Shown: in pieces, positions 1 to 23,994 of the stretch
Layout: each line of letters begins with the position of its first letter
Position numbering within the stretch: position 1 is the first letter of the stretch
IMG/VR virus record: IMGVR_UViG_3300031250_000121
Location: 1-27,331 of that record
DNA length: 27,331 bases
Source of the DNA: a virus
Reading direction: 5' to 3' (one strand)
Notes under the pieces: model-generated
What the model was told of the DNA's origin: nothing
Databases searched by the model: none
The model's input: only the letters and a program-made list of their open reading frames with translations
Program-made: the position numbers and the translations under genes

Positions 1-517
1 CGAAGAGCGCGCCATTGACGAAGAGCTGCGTCAGCGCGCCGAGCGCCTCGTCGAGGCTCTCGCCGAGCAGCACGGGCGACGTCCATGTCACCTGCCAGAG
101 CGCGACGCCGGCGTTCTGCGAGGCGTCGGAATATTCATTCGCCCCGCGCAAATTCTCCGGCTGAAAGACGCCCTCCAGCCCGAAGCGATGGCCGGCGACG
201 GCGAGCGCCACAGCATTGGCGATGAGCAGCGCCGCCGTGTCGCGCCCCACCTTGTCGCCTTCCTGCATGGCGTCCTTGGCGACGACGACGGCGGCGAAAT
301 GCACGGGCAGCCGCAGCATGCCGCTGGAATGGCGCTCGACGCGGTCGAAGCCCATGCAGGCCACGCGGATCGCTGGCGCGAGCGTCGCGAACTTCTTGAC
401 CTCGCCGTCGTCGAATGTCCCGCCATGCGGCTCGATCGAGCGCAGGCCGGGGATCTTCGCGCGCAGCCGCGTGACGACGGCGGCGCGCAGATTGACGAGA
501 TCGCCGACGCCGCTCAT
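1..517 (-). CDS. DUF1834 (Mu gp37-like) tail protein, cut by window edge
   Basis: Reading leftward from the ATG at 517 there are about 172 codons with no stop before base 1, so the C-terminus is missing. The translation begins MSGVGDLVNLRAAVVTRL and has the pattern of the DUF1834/gp37 family. This is a tail-region protein of Mu-like phages of roughly this size, whose precise role in the tail is not established. The start overlaps the gpG stop by four bases (ATGA, 514-517), indicating translational coupling. Probably only a short C-terminal tail is lost. Confidence 0.82.
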   Translation of the reverse strand, partial: MSGVGDLVNLRAAVVTRLRAKIPGLRSIEPHGGTFDDGEVKKFATLAPAIRVACMGFDRVERHSSGMLRLPVHFAAVVVAKDAMQEGDKVGRDTAALLIANAVALAVAGHRFGLEGVFQPENLRGANEYSDASQNAGVALWQVTWTSPVLLGESLDEALGALTQLFVNGALF

Positions 518-996
518 TGCAGCACCGTGGTCAGGAAGCGCTCGGCCGTGCGGATCATCTCCTCCTCATTGGCCTTGGAAAGCCCGACATAGCGGCGCGC
601 CGGAATGGTGACCTTGCCGGCGAAGACCTCCTTGCCGCCGATCTTGAAGACGAGCGCCTTGCCGTTCACGGGATAGATAGTCGCGCCGAGCTGATGCACG
701 CGGGCTCCGATCCAGCCGGAGCCCCAGCGCGCCTCGGTCTCGCCGGCGATATAGTCGATGTGGCGCGCCAGATGCTCGCCCTTGACGAAGAGCGCGGCGC
801 GGCCATCGATCGTCGGTTTCCAAGGCTTGCCTTCCGGCGTCGTCTTCTCGACCTCGAGGCGATGGCGCGTCTGCTCCTGGCCGCGTCGCGCCAGGCCTTC
901 CATCAGCTCGTGCTTCTCCAGCGCTGCTGCGCGGTTGAGCCGCGTCAGCGCGGCGGACATGCCGTTCACATCCATGTGGAAGGAGACGCCGTCCAT
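514..996 (-). CDS. Phage virion morphogenesis protein (Mu gpG-like)
   Basis: 160 residues. In the gpG family (phage virion morphogenesis / tail completion) the protein is needed to finish the tail and join it to the head. Visible features are a charged helical N-terminus with an RRGQEQTRHRLEVEK stretch, a GKPWKPT motif typical of the family, and a C-terminal IPARRYVGLS motif, which is the common family ending. An in-frame ATG at 1002 sits one base after the AAGGAG ribosome site, too close. The ATG at 996 has a spacing of seven and was chosen. In Mu, gene G follows F; here it lies between gp36 and gp37, as in some other Mu-like phages. Confidence 0.85.
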   Translation of the reverse strand: MDGVSFHMDVNGMSAALTRLNRAAALEKHELMEGLARRGQEQTRHRLEVEKTTPEGKPWKPTIDGRAALFVKGEHLARHIDYIAGETEARWGSGWIGARVHQLGATIYPVNGKALVFKIGGKEVFAGKVTIPARRYVGLSKANEEEMIRTAERFLTTVLQ

Positions 997-1009
997 CAGC
1001 ATGCTCCTT

Positions 1010-1456
1010 TCACATCGCCCTCAAACGATTGCGCGAGAACTCGCGGTCATTGGCGGCGACGATCGCCTCATTGGGCGACGGCACGGCGGCCGCTGGCGCG
1101 CCCGGCGGCGGGTTCTGCGGAATGTCGGCGAGCCCGCGCGCGACGTCGGAGAGGAATTTGCGCGCGGCCTCGACGGCGTCCTTGACGATGTCGTTGCGCG
1201 CGCCGGGCGTGTTGGACAGCTCGCCCATGGCGAGATCGCAGCAGAGATTGCGCAGCAGCGTCACGCCATCCGGCGCGGCGTCGATCGGCAGAGCGTAGCG
1301 CTTGGCGAAATAGCCGTTCATCACCGCGCTCGCGCTGTCGAGCGCGGCTTCTATGCGCAGCGGGTCGCGCGCCTGCGTCGCCCCGTCGAAGGCGGCGAGG
1401 TCCACCTGCTCCGCGCCCCACTTGCGCACGAGATCGGCTTCGGTGGCGTAGGACAT
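1010..1456 (-). CDS. DUF1320 (Mu gp36-like) protein
   Basis: 148 residues starting MSYATEADLVRKWG. This is the typical opening of DUF1320/gp36, a head-tail connector-region protein of Mu-like phages resembling head-completion adaptors. The family core is visible: an acidic N-terminal helix, the ALDSASAVMNGYFAKRY segment and a Cys-Cys pair in LLRNLCCDLAMGEL. The C-terminal third is Pro/Ala rich and probably disordered. A strong ribosome site (AAAGGAGAA) precedes the ATG. Directly upstream lie a GC-rich hairpin and a tRNA gene, so the 5' end of this coding segment on the processed late transcript may be created by tRNA maturation. Confidence 0.88.
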   Translation of the reverse strand: MSYATEADLVRKWGAEQVDLAAFDGATQARDPLRIEAALDSASAVMNGYFAKRYALPIDAAPDGVTLLRNLCCDLAMGELSNTPGARNDIVKDAVEAARKFLSDVARGLADIPQNPPPGAPAAAVPSPNEAIVAANDREFSRNRLRAM

Positions 1457-1471: not shown

Positions 1472-1500
1472 GGGGGCGCGGGTTTGGACCCCGCGCCCCC
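1472..1500 (-). promoter_or_regulatory. 11-bp GC-rich stem-loop between tRNA and gp36
   Basis: GGGGGCGCGGG (1472-1482) pairs perfectly with CCCGCGCCCCC (1490-1500) across a seven-base loop. It lies 29 bases downstream of the tRNA 3' end and just upstream of the gp36 ribosome site. No run of U follows on the minus strand, so it does not look like an intrinsic terminator. A role in protecting the downstream mRNA end after tRNA excision, or in attenuation, is inference. Confidence 0.6.
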
Positions 1501-1529: not shown

Positions 1530-1604
1530 TGGGTGCGGGGGACGGACTCGAACCGCCGACCTCCTGGTTATGAGCCAGGCGAGCTGCCGCTGCTCTACCC
1601 CGCA
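1530..1604 (-). tRNA. tRNA-Met (CAU), elongator-like, with encoded CCA
   Basis: The minus strand folds into a complete 75-base cloverleaf. The acceptor stem TGCGGGG/CCCCGCA has seven pairs. The D-stem is GAGC/GCTC with a seven-base loop. The anticodon stem CCTGG/CCAGG carries loop CTCATAA (anticodon CAT). There is a five-base variable loop. The T-arm is GGCGG-TTCGAGT-CCGTC with one G-T pair, followed by discriminator C and encoded CCA. Position 1-72 is a normal T-A pair, and the anticodon stem lacks the three consecutive G-C pairs of initiators, so this is not tRNA-fMet. Elongator Met is favoured; an Ile tRNA with modified C34 cannot be excluded. It lies seven bases after the upstream gene, inside the late operon and on its strand, so it must be cut out of the late transcript. 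Confidence 0.93.
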
Positions 1605-1611
1605 AAACTCG

Positions 1612-1839
1612 TCAGGGGCGCGAGAGGCGCAGCTCCGGATCATTGGCGATCGCCTCTTGCTCCGCCTCCGTGAGCGTCGAGACGTCGACCAGGGTCGGCT
1701 CTGGCGTGAACTTTCGGCCGGCGCGCCAACGTCCGCCGGCCGGTCCGGTCACGGCGACGACGATGCCTCTCGGCTCGCCATCGACCGGCGGTTTCCCCTC
1801 TTTGTCGCCGTCGAGCGGCGTTTTGGATTTCTCGGCCAT
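1612..1839 (-). CDS. FluMu N-terminal-domain (gp35-like) protein
   Basis: 75 residues. The C-terminal half (GGRWRAGRKFTPEPTLVDV followed by an acidic LTEAEQEAIANDPEL segment) matches the pattern of the short FluMu_N/HI1506 domain found next to the major head gene in Mu-like prophages. That domain has an R(R/W)AG core, a hydrophobic turn and a 'L..DP.L' ending. The N-terminus is Lys/Asp/Pro rich and probably disordered. Start chosen at the ATG preceded by GAGGAGGACGGA. Function is unknown; position suggests a virion or head-assembly accessory. It ends seven bases before the tRNA gene. Confidence 0.75.
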   Translation of the reverse strand: MAEKSKTPLDGDKEGKPPVDGEPRGIVVAVTGPAGGRWRAGRKFTPEPTLVDVSTLTEAEQEAIANDPELRLSRP

Positions 1840-1867: not shown

Positions 1868-2758
1868 TCAGTCGAGCCAGGGGACGTTGACGATCTCGAC
1901 GAGCTTGTAGAGCGTGTTGCTGGTCGCATCGATGACCTGCGCCTCGATGAGCGCGCGGGCGGCGAAGTAGGTCGAAGGACCGCACGCCATCACCTGCGGC
2001 TTGACGCCCAGCAGACGCCCTTCGTTAGACTTGAGCTGCGTCATCGCCGTATAGGCGGCCTGGACATTGGTGCTGTTGATCGTCTGCCTGCTCGCATAGG
2101 CCAGCTGCCAGAAGCCGTAGCCGAAGCCCGCGCGCAGATCGACGCCATAGGTGTATTCATTGCGCATGAAGACTTGGTCGCTCGAGCGGGCGTCGACCTT
2201 CGAGACGAACTCGGGCTTCTTGCGCGTCTGCAGGATCAGCGGCTTGAGGCTGCGCGAGAGATCGAGCAGGAACCAGGCGGGGCCGGAGCCGCCGCCGAAA
2301 TTCGAAACCGTGACCTCCTCTCCCGGCATCCCGACCGGATGATCCGTGTCGAAGAAATACTGGCCATCGAAGCATTTCGTCGCAAAGCCCGCATTGAGCA
2401 GGGCGAACAGCTCCTCGTCGTTGAAATAGCCGGCGGAGGAACCCATCGCCTCCATCAGCGGCCCGTAGACGTTCCACTGATCGTCCTCGATCGCCGGCCG
2501 CGGGACAGAGACCGTCGACTCGAAGGGCTTGTTCGAAATCTCGTAGCCGTCGGCGCGCAGGCTCTGGATCACACGATCGCCGATCCATTCGCGCAGCTTC
2601 GGAAATTGGCCGAGCCAGGCGTAGACATTCTTCGACGTCGAGGACGGCACCTCTGTTGCGAAGCGTCCCCACATGGGCGCGACGCCGCCGAGCGCTCGCT
2701 GGAAGTTGGCGCGATAGGCGGTATTGAGAAAATCGATATTGGCCTGATTGATGATCAT
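1868..2758 (-). CDS. Major head subunit (Mu gpT-like)
   Basis: 296 residues, close to the roughly 305 of Mu gpT. It forms the icosahedral capsid shell. Family hallmarks: the N-terminal MIINQANIDFLNTAYRANF segment, the MWGRFATEVPSSTSKNVYAWLGQFPKLREW block, and the middle FFDTDHPVG stretch typical of Mu-like prophage major head proteins. An upstream in-frame extension to 2950 exists but has unrelated low-complexity codons and overlaps the preceding gene, so the ATG at 2758 was chosen. It lies 32 bases downstream of the decoration-protein gene, as usual in head clusters. Confidence 0.95.
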   Translation of the reverse strand: MIINQANIDFLNTAYRANFQRALGGVAPMWGRFATEVPSSTSKNVYAWLGQFPKLREWIGDRVIQSLRADGYEISNKPFESTVSVPRPAIEDDQWNVYGPLMEAMGSSAGYFNDEELFALLNAGFATKCFDGQYFFDTDHPVGMPGEEVTVSNFGGGSGPAWFLLDLSRSLKPLILQTRKKPEFVSKVDARSSDQVFMRNEYTYGVDLRAGFGYGFWQLAYASRQTINSTNVQAAYTAMTQLKSNEGRLLGVKPQVMACGPSTYFAARALIEAQVIDATSNTLYKLVEIVNVPWLD

Positions 2759-7304: not shown

Positions 7305-8938
7305 CAATAGAGCCCTTCCTGCGGGAGCTTCATGTCCGCGGCGTCGGCGGTATCCTCGCCGCGGTTCGACTCGCGTAGCGTGCGGGCGCTCTCATAGTCG
7401 TAGAGCGCGACCAGCGCCCGCGTCGCCGCATAGGCGAGCATCAGCGCGACGGCCGCGTCTCCGTGGCGGTTCTTCTGCTCGCCGGATTTGAGCGCGGGAA
7501 TGAAGGGCACGCCGCCTTTCGTCTTCACCAGCCGCAGATCCGAGTGGATCTCCGAATCCGCCGGAATCTCGATCGCGTCATCCTCGAAGGCGGTTTTCAC
7601 GGGCTGGGCGTTGTCGCGATACCAGGGAATGTTGAGCGCGACCGCCTCGGTGCGCTCCAGCCCATATTGCTGGACCGCGTATTCCGCGATCGACATGCCG
7701 AGGCCGGTCGCGTCGTGCTTGGAGGCCGAAAAACGCGGCAGGCGGTCGCAGATATATTTGAGCACCTGCTTTTGCTGATCGAACGGAATGCGCCGCATCT
7801 CGACGACGAAGGGCGTGATGCGCCGCGTGGTGCGCGAGATGGCGAGCGGCCAGAGCACGGAGAGATCGCGCACGCGCCCATAGTCGCCGCCGAGGAAATG
7901 GCCGAGGTGCGAGTCGAGCGTGCGGAGGATCGGCAGCAGCTCGCGCTCGCACCAGTCGTTTATGTCGGCCTCGCGCAGATGCGCCGGCCAATAGGTGAAG
8001 CTCTCGGGCCGCTCGAGGCGCAGCACGGGAATGCCCTGGCGCGAGCGCGCTTCGATCAGCGGAGCCAGTAACCAAGCGCCGCCGCCCTCGGAGGGAATGC
8101 AGAACAGCTCCTCGTCGGCCGCCTCGCCGTAGAAGGCGACAATGTCGGAGCGCCACTTCGCCTCTTTCTCGACGCTCCACTCCTCGCCCTTGACGAGGCA
8201 GACGCGCTCATAAAGGCCTTGCTTCAGTGCGTCGTCGAAGTCGATGCGCAAAAGCGCATAGGGCTTGCGGCCGCCGCGAATGTCGAGGATCAGCCGATTA
8301 TAGGGATTGTCCGTGCCGTTGTGGGTCGAGATGATCAGGACCTTGCCGCCCCAGATCAGCAGAGCGAGCGCCGCCTGCAGCACGGCGTCGAGATCGTCGT
8401 GGAAGGCCGCCTCGTCGATGATCACATAGCCCTGACGGCCGCGCAGCGAACGCGGGCGGGAGGCGAGCGCGACGATCTCGAATCCGGAGGCGAAACGGAT
8501 TCGGAACGCCTGGATGAATTTGTCCGGCTCGCTCTCGAACAGGAAGTCCTCGACGCCGGCGACGGTGACCGCCTTGACGAAGGAGCGCGCCCACATGGCG
8601 CAAGTGTCGATGAACTCGCGCGCCATATCGAGATTGTAGCCGATATAGAGCGTATCCATGCCGCCGGCCGACTTCTCGGCGGCGGACGTTAGCACGGCGT
8701 CCGCGCCGGCCGCCCAGGTCACCCCCGTGCGGCGGCTCTTCTCGACGACGGTGACGGCGTTTGTCGCCGTGGTGGCGAGCAGCTGCGACTGATAGGGGAG
8801 GAGCACAGCCGGCATGCCGCCGGCTGTCTCCAGCTTCTCGGGTGCCAGCGCCAGGCTGTCCAGGCGATGGCGCTTCCACTCCGCCTCGGTGATGAGGCGG
8901 GCGGACTGGATTTCTTCATAGGACGGGAGCACGGTCAT
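7304..8938 (-). CDS. Terminase large subunit (Mu gp28-like)
   Basis: 544 residues; the ATPase/nuclease motor that packages phage DNA. An adapted Walker A (EKSRRTGVTW, about 66-75), Walker B (YVIIDEA, 171-177) and a coupling motif (IISTHNGTDNPYN, 202-214) define the ATPase. The nuclease half has acidic FLGGDYGRVRDLSV, KHDATGLG and a late HGDAAVAL, consistent with an RNase H-like fold. Length and order (small terminase, then large, then portal) agree with Mu-like phages. The start overlaps the methyltransferase stop by four bases. Packaging is expected to be headful from integrated copies with flanking host DNA. Confidence 0.93.
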   Translation of the reverse strand: MTVLPSYEEIQSARLITEAEWKRHRLDSLALAPEKLETAGGMPAVLLPYQSQLLATTATNAVTVVEKSRRTGVTWAAGADAVLTSAAEKSAGGMDTLYIGYNLDMAREFIDTCAMWARSFVKAVTVAGVEDFLFESEPDKFIQAFRIRFASGFEIVALASRPRSLRGRQGYVIIDEAAFHDDLDAVLQAALALLIWGGKVLIISTHNGTDNPYNRLILDIRGGRKPYALLRIDFDDALKQGLYERVCLVKGEEWSVEKEAKWRSDIVAFYGEAADEELFCIPSEGGGAWLLAPLIEARSRQGIPVLRLERPESFTYWPAHLREADINDWCERELLPILRTLDSHLGHFLGGDYGRVRDLSVLWPLAISRTTRRITPFVVEMRRIPFDQQKQVLKYICDRLPRFSASKHDATGLGMSIAEYAVQQYGLERTEAVALNIPWYRDNAQPVKTAFEDDAIEIPADSEIHSDLRLVKTKGGVPFIPALKSGEQKNRHGDAAVALMLAYAATRALVALYDYESARTLRESNRGEDTADAADMKLPQEGLY

Positions 8939-9513
8939 TCCGCGGCCTCATCGAACTTGGTGGCCTCGTCGCCCCAATTGCTCCAGCCGGGCCGCGTCTG
9001 CCGCGAGAAGAGATCGAGCTTGCGCACGCCGGGAAACATGCGCTCGCACTTCTGGTAGATTTCCTCGGGCTTGCGCGAGTGCTCGCGCAGCGGCGCCTCG
9101 ATCAGATTGCGTTCACTGTGCGAGACGATCTTCGGCTCGCCGATGGCGCCCCAGAGATAGGCCTCCGCCGCCGAGCGCTCCCAATAGCCGAGACCGAACG
9201 CCCATTTCGCGCCCGTGGCGCTGCGCTTGCCCCAGACGCCGTAGGATTTGTAGGCGAAGCCCCAATGCAGCATGAGATCGAGCTGCATGGGCAGCAACGG
9301 CCCTGTCGTCCAGAGGCACATTGCGCAATTGGGCGCCGCGAGCCTCCAGACCGGGAGCGCGTAGAGCTGCTCGCGGGTCATGGTGCGATAGTGGCGGCTC
9401 GCGCTCTTGGCCTGCCCCTTGTCGCTGCGCGTGGCGTAGCTCCACGCCGGATCGGCGAGGATCAGCCCGAAGCTCGACGGCTCCAGATTGCCGAAGGGCC
9501 AGTCCTCGCTCAC
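8935..9513 (-). CDS. MT-A70 family adenine methyltransferase
   Basis: 192 residues. The MT-A70 (Ime4-type) fold is recognised by the catalytic LILADPAWSY motif at about 17-26, HYRTMTREQLYALPVW, CAMCLWTTGPLLP, and the later REHSRKPEEIYQ and KLDLFSRQTRPGWSNWG motifs. It would transfer a methyl group from SAM to the N6 of adenine in DNA, perhaps protecting packaged DNA from host restriction. The usual DPPW is DPAW here, a change that may be normal in phage members of the family. It sits between the two terminase genes with four-base overlaps on both sides, so it is made together with the packaging machinery. Confidence 0.9.
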   Translation of the reverse strand: MSEDWPFGNLEPSSFGLILADPAWSYATRSDKGQAKSASRHYRTMTREQLYALPVWRLAAPNCAMCLWTTGPLLPMQLDLMLHWGFAYKSYGVWGKRSATGAKWAFGLGYWERSAAEAYLWGAIGEPKIVSHSERNLIEAPLREHSRKPEEIYQKCERMFPGVRKLDLFSRQTRPGWSNWGDEATKFDEAAE

Positions 9514-20989: not shown

Positions 20990-23134
20990 CTAACGCAACG
21001 CCGCCTCTCCGAAATCCTGATAGAGCTCACGCATGGCTCGATATTCGGGGCCTGTCTGATAGGCGCCGAGCCACATCGCGTCCTCGGTCGAAATCCTCTC
21101 GTTGTTGTCGATCCTCGCCTCCAGCTCGAGCGCGCGGCGGAAACGCTGCTGCTTGGTCTCGGGCAGCTGCGTGACGCGTGGCGACGGCGCCATGGGCGCG
21201 ACGCTCGCCAAATCCTGCTCGATCTCGGTGAGCGTCGCGCGCTGCTCTTGCGTCTGCGGCGCGGGCGCGGGCTGCTCGATCGCCGCTCGGGCGGCTTCCA
21301 GTGCGGGCGTTGTGTGTGTCTCCGAGGGGCGCGGGAACTCGACCAGCTTGCCGGCCTCGAGGGCCTTCTTGCGCACGACAACATCGACGAAATAGCGGCT
21401 GTGAAACTGCTTCATATCGGCGCGCAAGATGTCGCCGCCTTCCTTCATGTGGCGCTCACGCGCGGCGCGCGCTTCGGCGACAGCGGCTGCAGGATCGACG
21501 CCCGCCAGTTCTGGGCAAATCGCCTCGCCGACATATTCGGCGCCGTCTGCCGAGAACAGCCAGGCGTGGCCCATGTCCTCCGGGTCCATGCGCACGAAGA
21601 CGCGCGTCTCTGGGTCCACAGTGGGCGTGAGGTAATAGGAGCCGTCGACGCGCACGCCCTTCTTAGTGACGACGCGAATTCCATCGCCGCCGGCAGCCGG
21701 CGCCAGCAGCAGATCGAGCGCGCGGACGTCGTCTATGCGCTTCACCGCCCCCGCGAAGCTCGCGGCCATCTGGAACGGCGTGGCGCCGCCGATGCCGGAG
21801 TGCGGACGCTGCGCATAGCGGCCTGCGAACCAATCGTCGCAATAGCTCTGCAGCTCCTTAGAGGTCAGCTCGACGCAGAAGGCGCCCGCGTCATCCTGGC
21901 CGAGACGCGCCGAGAAGGCTCTACGCTCCTCGATCACCTTGCGGTCCTTGACGCTGTGGCCGATGAAGCCCGGCAACAGCGGGCAGAGATCGCGCTGGAA
22001 TGTGCCGACGGCGCGCTCGATATGGCCCTTCTGTTCAGGAGAGAAGGGCGCGGACAGCTCGACCTCGATCTCCAGCGCCTTGAACAGGCGTTGCGTCGAT
22101 TTCGCGGTGAAGTCGGAGCCATTGTCCGTCTTCACGCGCTCCGGCACGCCCCAAGCAAGAATGGCGCGGCGCATCAGCAGCGCGACGGCCTCGGCGCGTG
22201 GCGTGCGGCTCACATAGACGATGAGGCGACGCGAGAAAATGTCGACGCAGAGATAGACGGAATGACGGCCGTCGACGCAGAGCGCGTCGGCCGGCGAGGC
22301 GTCGATCATCCACAGCTCGTTCAACCTATCGACGGCGTGCGAATTCGTGCCGGAGAGGCGATATTTGCTCTTATAGGCGTCCGGATTGGTGATCTTGGTG
22401 AGGAGAACCTTGTCCTCATCCTCGATCCGCGCGCGCATGCGCTGCACCGTGCGCAGCGAGACCCCCACATCGGGGAACTTGTCCTCGATCAATTTGAGTA
22501 GATGATCGGCCGAAAGATGCGGCTGCTTGGCTATCGCGGCGGTGAGGAACGCGCGCACCTGACCCTCTCCGCCGCGATTCAACGCGCCTCTACCCCTACG
22601 CGCGGCGCCGCGATCGACGCCGAGCCCTGAAATTCCTTGGACGCGCTTGGTCGAGCGCCAGCGGGCCAGCGTGCGCTGCGACAGCTTCGGCACGGCGGCG
22701 CGCACGCCGGGCTCCACCTCTATGCGGCCGAGATTGTAGAGCGCCGCGAATGTGCGATCGGCCATGTTGCGCGAGAGCGTCGCGTTCCGCGCATAGAGAT
22801 CGGCGGCGGCGATGAGCGTGAGGCGCGCGTCGCGATTGTCGAGCGCGATGAGCGTGAGCCGCTTCTTGGCCTCCTCGATAGACGCAGCGGCGGCGTCCTC
22901 CGGCGCGAGGGCGACATCGCCGATGGCGCGCGCCGCATAGGCCGCGAGCGCCGCCGCCGGCAGCAGGTCGATCGAATATTCGAGGCCTCCGCCCCGGCCC
23001 TTGCGCAGACGGACCTTATCCGTGCGCTCGAGCCAGCCCTCGCGCTCGGCGTAGTCACGCCAGCCGCGCTCTGTCTCCGGCAAGCCGGGCAGAGAAAGGG
23101 CCGCGAGTTCGGGAGCGGAAAGCCAGTCGCGCAT
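20990..23134 (-). CDS. muA: Mu-type DDE transposase (MuA-like)
   Basis: 714 residues from MRDWLSAPELAALSLPGLPE. The N-terminal Mu-type DNA-binding domain occupies about 1-75 (WLSAPELA..SLPGLP....W..YA). A helical site-binding part (Ibeta/gamma-like) runs to about 245. The RNase H-like catalytic core has D278 (LWMIDAS), D337 (KTDNGSDF) and E373 (KGHIERAVGTF), followed by a beta-barrel and a C-terminal tail for B contact. It cuts and joins phage ends for integration and replicative transposition. The ATG shares one base with the ParB-like stop; an upstream in-frame extension lies inside the preceding gene. Confidence 0.95.
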   Translation of the reverse strand: MRDWLSAPELAALSLPGLPETERGWRDYAEREGWLERTDKVRLRKGRGGGLEYSIDLLPAAALAAYAARAIGDVALAPEDAAAASIEEAKKRLTLIALDNRDARLTLIAAADLYARNATLSRNMADRTFAALYNLGRIEVEPGVRAAVPKLSQRTLARWRSTKRVQGISGLGVDRGAARRGRGALNRGGEGQVRAFLTAAIAKQPHLSADHLLKLIEDKFPDVGVSLRTVQRMRARIEDEDKVLLTKITNPDAYKSKYRLSGTNSHAVDRLNELWMIDASPADALCVDGRHSVYLCVDIFSRRLIVYVSRTPRAEAVALLMRRAILAWGVPERVKTDNGSDFTAKSTQRLFKALEIEVELSAPFSPEQKGHIERAVGTFQRDLCPLLPGFIGHSVKDRKVIEERRAFSARLGQDDAGAFCVELTSKELQSYCDDWFAGRYAQRPHSGIGGATPFQMAASFAGAVKRIDDVRALDLLLAPAAGGDGIRVVTKKGVRVDGSYYLTPTVDPETRVFVRMDPEDMGHAWLFSADGAEYVGEAICPELAGVDPAAAVAEARAARERHMKEGGDILRADMKQFHSRYFVDVVVRKKALEAGKLVEFPRPSETHTTPALEAARAAIEQPAPAPQTQEQRATLTEIEQDLASVAPMAPSPRVTQLPETKQQRFRRALELEARIDNNERISTEDAMWLGAYQTGPEYRAMRELYQDFGEAALR

Positions 23135-23994
23135 CAGTCTGCCTGCGTTCCGGCGCGCTTCTTCGCCGACATCTCGGCGCCGATCATCTTCAGGAAGGCG
23201 ACCTTGGTGGGCTTGCTGGCCTTCTCCCAATTTTCGAGTAGAGCGGCGAGGATGCGCGCCTGTGGGTCGACGATCGTCGGCTTTGCGAGACCCGCGGCGA
23301 TCTTCGCCTGCACGACGCTCTTGGCCTCGCCGGATTTGATGTGTTGCGCGATATCGCGCTGCTGGCTATCGGGCAGCTCCGCGAGCTGGAACAGCTCGTT
23401 CTGGTTATTCTCGAGCGGCGTGCCGCGGATCGCGGCAATGGCGTCCTTGTCGAGCCGGCGGGCGAGCATGATCGCCTTCTGGATCGCGCTTTCGGAGTAG
23501 CCCGTGCGCTTGGCCGCGTCCTCGGTGAAGCGCTCGGAGAAATCCATTCGGAAAGATTCCGAACTGATCAGCTCCTTGAATTTCGTGCTCTTGCGGTCGC
23601 CGCCACGGCTATGCACGCGGCGCATTTCCTCATAGACGGATTTGCGCTCCAGCAGGAACAACGCGCGGTCGAGAGCGTTCAGCTCATTGCGTGCGATATT
23701 CTCGTCGATCTCAATGAGGCGCGCCTCCATCGCATCGACGTCGAGGACGCGCACATGCTGATCGACCGCCAGCTCTTTCCATCCGAGCAGTTGCACCGCT
23801 GCGGTCCGATGGCCTCCGACGATCAGCACGTAAGGCAAGCCCGGTCCGTCGTCTTCGGACCTCTTGCGAACGAGAACGGGCTGCGACAAGCCGCGCTGCT
23901 CGATGGAGGCTGCGATCAGCTCGGCTTCATGCGGATCGACGGGCCGCAGCCGCTTGCTGACGTCTATGTCTTCGATCCGAATTGTCTCTGTCAT
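23134..23994 (-). CDS. ParB/Spo0J-like nuclease-fold protein
   Basis: 286 residues. The ParB N-terminal domain is clear: VSKRLRPVDPHEAELIAASI at about 13-32, QPVLVRKR, the YVLIVGGHRTAAVQLLGW motif (55-72; GGHR in place of GERR) and IEIDENIARNELNALDRALF. The second half (about 130-230) has an HTH stretch (FTEDAAKRTGYSESAIQKAI). True ParA is absent, so a role in plasmid-style partition is unlikely. It may be a DNA-binding regulator or CTP-dependent clamp in transposition or host takeover. ParB-like genes are known in this position in some alphaproteobacterial Mu-like phages. Ribosome site GAGG six bases upstream. Confidence 0.88.
   Translation of the reverse strand: MTETIRIEDIDVSKRLRPVDPHEAELIAASIEQRGLSQPVLVRKRSEDDGPGLPYVLIVGGHRTAAVQLLGWKELAVDQHVRVLDVDAMEARLIEIDENIARNELNALDRALFLLERKSVYEEMRRVHSRGGDRKSTKFKELISSESFRMDFSERFTEDAAKRTGYSESAIQKAIMLARRLDKDAIAAIRGTPLENNQNELFQLAELPDSQQRDIAQHIKSGEAKSVVQAKIAAGLAKPTIVDPQARILAALLENWEKASKPTKVAFLKMIGAEMSAKKRAGTQAD

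Follow-up and report, generated by a model that had tools for sequence, protein, structure and literature searches.

Genomic context of the tRNA gene

The window, i.e., the whole stretch of DNA analysed here, consists of a virus record of 27,331 bases without a host genome. Its family matches comprise a MuA-type transposase, GemA, Gp27, a portal protein, gpF, a protease, gpT, gp36 and gp37. Since the MuA-type transposase (20990..23230, minus strand; PF00665, PF09299 and PF02316) occurs together with the Mu head genes in order, the window phage can be classified, from its gene content, as a Mu-like transposable phage. An MT-A70-type DNA methyltransferase gene (8935-9513) separates the large terminase from a Mu Gp27-like gene.

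The head operon, encoded on the minus strand, contains the major head protein gpT (1868..2758; PF10124, 3e-110), a small protein of 75 aa counted from its ATG (1612..1839), a tRNA gene (1530..1604), the gp36 head-tail adaptor (1010..1456; PF07030, 4e-18) and a gp37/phage_tail_S-like neck protein (514..1002; PF05069, 1.4e-15). These neighbours and the transposase confirm the placement of the tRNA in the head operon of a Mu-like phage, as put forward in the initial annotation. Its location on the coding strand, upstream of gp36 (start at 1456), was also correctly described there, but the FluMu_N label given to the gene upstream could not be retained: PF17891 is unmatched by the corresponding proteins of the window and of the related loci L040, L041 and L076, and the protein of another relative, L240, falls just under the cut-off. 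The window gene occupies the position of Mu gp35, and its product (about 75-76 aa), devoid of any Pfam match, corresponds to phrog_27280/38659, both of unknown function.

The gene at 1530-1604, identified by ARAGORN as a tRNA-Met(CAU), is the single tRNA detected by this program over the whole window. It is 75 nt long, with a 7-nt D loop and a CCA encoded at 1530-1532, and reads TGCGGGG-TA-GAGC-AGCGGCA-GCTC-G-CCTGG-CTCATAA-CCAGG-AGGTC-GGCGG-TTCGAGT-CCGTC-CCCCGCA-C-CCA. The complete cloverleaf with encoded CCA that had been proposed is recovered by ARAGORN, by a full-length match to the Rfam family RF00005 and by the minimum-free-energy fold; the Rfam match passes the family cut-off with 62.6 bits for a gathering score of 29 (E 1.4e-11), which is far from the poor covariance score envisaged beforehand as a reason for doubt. 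The anticodon CAU lies at 1570..1572 (ARAGORN position 33, and alignment), in a loop CUCAUAA also found in hosts. A chance cloverleaf is ruled out by the Rfam score and by covariation in relatives, and a remnant of a tyrosine-integrase integration site by the MuA transposase of the phage and the internal position of the tRNA. The upstream gene, stop codon included, ends at 1612 and nucleotide 1 of the tRNA lies at 1604, which leaves a spacer of exactly 7 nt (1605..1611), in agreement with the seven bases counted initially; RNase P would be predicted to cut at 1604/1605. Around the window tRNA, neither a sigma-70-like promoter nor a minus-strand terminator with a U tract was found.

A strong hairpin, GGGGGCGCGGG-GUCCAAA-CCCGCGCCCCC, occurs at 1472..1500 (minus strand; fold z -4.4), between the tRNA and gp36 and directly upstream of the latter; it has no U tract and did not score as a terminator. 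L009, a relative without an intact tRNA, possesses an identical loop GUCCAAA on a stem with three compensatory changes, so that the hairpin is independent of the tRNA and an element marking the head/connector boundary exists without it. Hairpins devoid of a U tract were also observed before gp36 at L009:7225-7290 and L040:1310-1376, and the downstream hairpin, together with its flanks, is common to L040, which carries the tRNA, and L245, which does not. Possibly, the hairpin serves as a protector of the mRNA end or as an attenuator.

Initiator character of the tRNA

The features distinguishing initiator tRNAs include a 1x72 mismatch, three G:C pairs in the anticodon stem (29-31:39-41), G2:C71, C3:G70 and A11:U24, as reviewed in PMC7949028. 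Methionine determinants consist of A73 and the CAU anticodon, and formylation depends on an unpaired C1-A72, A73, G2-C71, C3-G70 and G4-C69 (PMC9976931). The window tRNA possesses A11:U24, i.e., the R11:Y24 pair of initiators, both the G2:C71 and C3:G70 formylation determinants, A72 and an fMet acceptor stem. In its anticodon stem, G30:C40 and G31:C39 are kept and the pair 29:41 is U:A; the alphaproteobacterial host initiators are also devoid of G29:C41 and exhibit A29:U41 instead. Two departures concern the end of the acceptor stem, where the expected 1x72 mismatch is replaced by a weak U1:A72 pair, and the discriminator, which is an atypical C73 instead of A73, followed by the CCA (1530..1533).

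Judged from these features, the tRNA is initiator-type (fMet-like): the CAU anticodon reported in the initial annotation stands, but the generic tRNA-Met assigned on that basis does not. The terms initiator-like and initiator-type are used here because U1:A72 pairs where a mismatch is expected. U1:A72 and C73 may make the window copy a poorer substrate, and C73 may point to reduced charging or early decay.

Occurrence in related phages

The search of related prophages for a tRNA at the same place, suggested at the outset, was successful. Relatives were sought via gpT, via gp36 and via a pattern for the short D loop of the tRNA, and nine further loci whose head operon harbours a CAU tRNA were identified, distributed among IMG/VR contigs (L010/L012, L032, L040, L041 and L076/L095) and prophages of four alphaproteobacterial genomes (L216, L232, L240 and L263). 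L032, L040, L041 and L076 are finds of the tRNA pattern and hence a biased sample (L095, on the contig of L076, was also reached via gpT), and L010, L216, L232, L240 and L263 were found by protein searches alone. With gp36 as the only query, 60 genome loci were obtained, some of them copies within one genome; in these, ARAGORN detected four tRNAs, all with the CAU anticodon, and no other isotype. In each record or region scanned, the head-operon CAU tRNA is the sole tRNA. The carriers do not cluster on the gpT tree (130 rows), where seven of them need seven changes. A lone CAU tRNA in the head operon is a recurrent feature among distantly related viruses.

At 8 of the 10 loci, window included, the tRNA is located at most 11 nt from, or overlaps, the stop of the gene in the gp35 position. 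The distance from this stop to nucleotide 1 of the tRNA amounts to 4 nt in L240, 5 nt in L076 and L010, 7 nt in the window and L040, 9 nt in L232 and 10 nt in L041, and in L216 the upstream reading frame terminates within the tRNA, at nt 8-10. Elsewhere, the tRNA is separated by 94 nt from the upstream gene and by about 20 nt from gp36 (L263), or lies 11 nt past the gene preceding gpT (L032). L041, which ends before gp36, and L263 encode a different major capsid protein. The tRNA of L216 (784-860) contains the TAG stop of the upstream frame and displays A54 in its T loop. Its excision would, from the arrangement of the bases, leave the upstream mRNA without a stop codon, so that any one transcript could either be processed or yield the complete product of that gene, but not both.

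The anticodon is CAU in all ten copies, G2:C71, C3:G70, G30:C40 and G31:C39 are invariant in the alignment, and R11:Y24 occurs in all copies but L232. The host-type anticodon loop CUCAUAA is found in six copies, including that of the window, and altered loops in the other four (CCCAUAA in L032; UUCAUAC in L076, L216 and L263). Position 1:72 is mismatched in L010, L032, L040, L232, L240 and L263. The discriminator is C73 in the window and L076 and A73 in the other eight copies; one base of the acceptor arm is missing in L076. The copy shared by L010 (4411-4520) and L012 (1003-1112), contigs of two metagenomes with an identical junction sequence, occupies the syntenic site and exhibits G1xA72 and A73; missed by ARAGORN in both contigs, it has a variable region enlarged by a 35-nt hairpin insert, and its T stem is broken, with only two pairs.

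Structural maintenance and patchy distribution

Covariation was measured on eight phage tRNAs and one host copy, with 500 shuffles as a reference. Stem cells are paired in 96.8% of the cases vs 85.4% in the shuffles, 21 cells are changed on both sides vs 7.0, and the covariation score reaches 0.357, a value attained by none of the 500 shuffles, vs 0.125; column 1:72 is unpaired in 6 of the 9 aligned rows. Among the four prophage genomes, the host initiators hardly vary, with 73-78 positions matched among themselves, and each prophage tRNA matches the initiator of its own host at fewer positions (64 in L240, 60 in L232, 61 in L216 and 70 in L263). At least eight positions are different in all four genomes, which rules out a fresh host copy for these prophages with known hosts; identity to a host tRNA in one strain only, which had been raised as an objection, is contradicted by this divergence and by the recurrence of the tRNA. 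The covariation and the mismatch with the host genes indicate that the copies carried by the phages are of old origin, differ from the host gene and have had their structure maintained. At L299:1501-1577 (G350), apparently in another prophage of the same genome, a further divergent fMet-like tRNA was observed, with an AGCAGCG acceptor stem. The short D loop, encountered in none of 397 genomes of the order and in one of 150 genomes of the phylum (apparently a host gene), is rare in hosts but not exclusive to viruses and was rejected as a viral hallmark.

Most phages of the group are devoid of the tRNA. It is absent from the head regions fetched for the isolated phages Mu, RcapMu, RS1, ThpS-P1, RhkS_P1 and POA1180, and from L245 despite 85% gpT identity to the carrier L040. 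This pattern is compatible with gain, loss and exchange of the tRNA alike. Near position 6207 of L245, where L040 has its tRNA, the junction GCGCGG-CTGC-CCGCGC-GAACCA resembles an acceptor-stem minihelix with CCA, and may be a deletion remnant or due to chance. Among relatives devoid of the tRNA, remnants were suggestive at L009 and L245 only and overall did not exceed chance; the L009 score, matched by 1 of 100 shuffles, corresponds to the chance level among the 73 loci tested.

Possible functions

Codon compensation is the usual explanation of phage tRNAs. It is unlikely for an initiator-type tRNA, since the elongator tRNA decodes internal AUG codons. As best explanation, to which we assign a probability of about 0.5, RNase P would release a late-expressed initiator-type tRNA from the head transcript, and this tRNA would add to the initiator pool. 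The tRNA would be transcribed within the late head mRNA, RNase P would generate its 5' end, and its 3' end would be trimmed to the encoded CCA; once charged and formylated, it would enlarge the initiator supply at a time when numerous capsid and tail mRNAs need initiation, and the recurrent tRNA may in this way help late protein synthesis. Features that fit poorly with such a role are C73 in the window and L076, U1:A72 in the window, the insert and broken T stem of L010/L012, the patchy distribution and the existence of isolated Mu-like phages without the tRNA.

Some of these features would be expected from a decaying passenger, acquired by an ancestor, exchanged by recombination and at present weakly selected in the window phage, a rather unlikely reading which would account for the patchiness, for C73, the missing acceptor-arm base of L076 and the L010 insert, and for possible remnants at the L009 and L245 junctions. 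The compensatory stem changes across loci and the copies kept intact in most lineages argue against it, and the remnant test, with its L009 score matched by one shuffle in a hundred among 73 loci, lends it little weight.

Excision of the tRNA would imply cutting of the head mRNA, and such cutting is plausible as a regulatory device. In its strict form, slightly less probable than decay, the tRNA would chiefly be a processing signal: cleavage of the late mRNA by RNase P and 3' nucleases would separate the abundant head genes from the connector genes and thereby fix their ratio, charging being irrelevant. The very near upstream stop at most loci (4-11 nt), the overlap with the upstream frame in L216 and the acceptor stem and CCA kept by copies with impaired identity elements (C73 in the window, the insert in L010) are consistent with this role, as is the stable hairpin that would shield the downstream mRNA at its 5' end in the window and L040. 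A processing signal has no need, however, for a CAU anticodon or an initiator signature, yet CAU and the GG/CC anticodon-stem pairs occur in 10 of 10 copies; the hairpin is present without a tRNA in L009 and L245, and most phages of the group dispense with the tRNA.

Replacement of a host tRNA-fMet destroyed by VapC-like nucleases is distinctly unlikely: enterobacterial VapC-type nucleases cleave initiator tRNA, phage tRNAs have been proposed to be resistant (PMC10264068), and the anticodon loop is altered in L032, L076, L216 and L263, but the host loop is retained in the six other copies, including that of the window, and phages tend to avoid encoding tRNA-fMet when it is targeted (PMC10264068). 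Least probable of all is a combined device, in which excision of the lone late initiator tRNA at the stop of the post-capsid gene would cut the head mRNA and its release raise the initiator level, so as to couple capsid transcription to translation initiation.

Under the preferred reading, a late supply of initiator-type tRNA, a phage whose sole tRNA is an initiator leads beyond codon compensation, internal AUG being the task of the elongator. Its recurrence at one late-operon site makes the control of translation initiation by phages via tRNA supply testable in inducible prophages, which also offer a test of whether a tRNA inside an mRNA serves to cut it.

Comparison with known systems

In the part of the literature covered, no description was found of Mu-like phages with a recurrent initiator-type tRNA between gp35 and gp36, of tRNAs within Mu-like head operons or of RNase P cutting phage late mRNA. 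RNase P-processed tRNAs are known to punctuate polycistronic transcripts, and the present arrangement resembles them by its tRNA within an mRNA and the cleavage expected at both ends. The host tRNA-fMet of Hyphomicrobiales (L173, L292-L295) shares with the window tRNA the acceptor GCGGGG/CCCCGC, G30:C40, G31:C39, A11:U24 and the CAU loop, but has C1xA72, A73 and a 9-nt D loop instead of U1:A72, C73 and a 7-nt D loop. In PMC12429752, phiLM21-like prophages of Sinorhizobium meliloti are described with a single CAU tRNA-Met/fMet, called fMet in four to five of them; they similarly represent alphaproteobacterial prophages with a lone CAU tRNA, but are of the tyrosine-integrase type, unlike the Mu-like carriers reported here.

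Phage tRNA-fMet genes as such are already known and common. The tRNA-fMet/tRNA-Met genes of mycobacteriophages, Caulobacter giant phages, Rhodobacter phage RcXuper and others are likewise of initiator type with a CAU anticodon and show 80-87% sequence identity; many of the top matches belong to phages of 56-378 kb, with no Mu-like phage among the matches listed, whereas the present case consists of a lone tRNA inserted between the head genes of a transposable phage.
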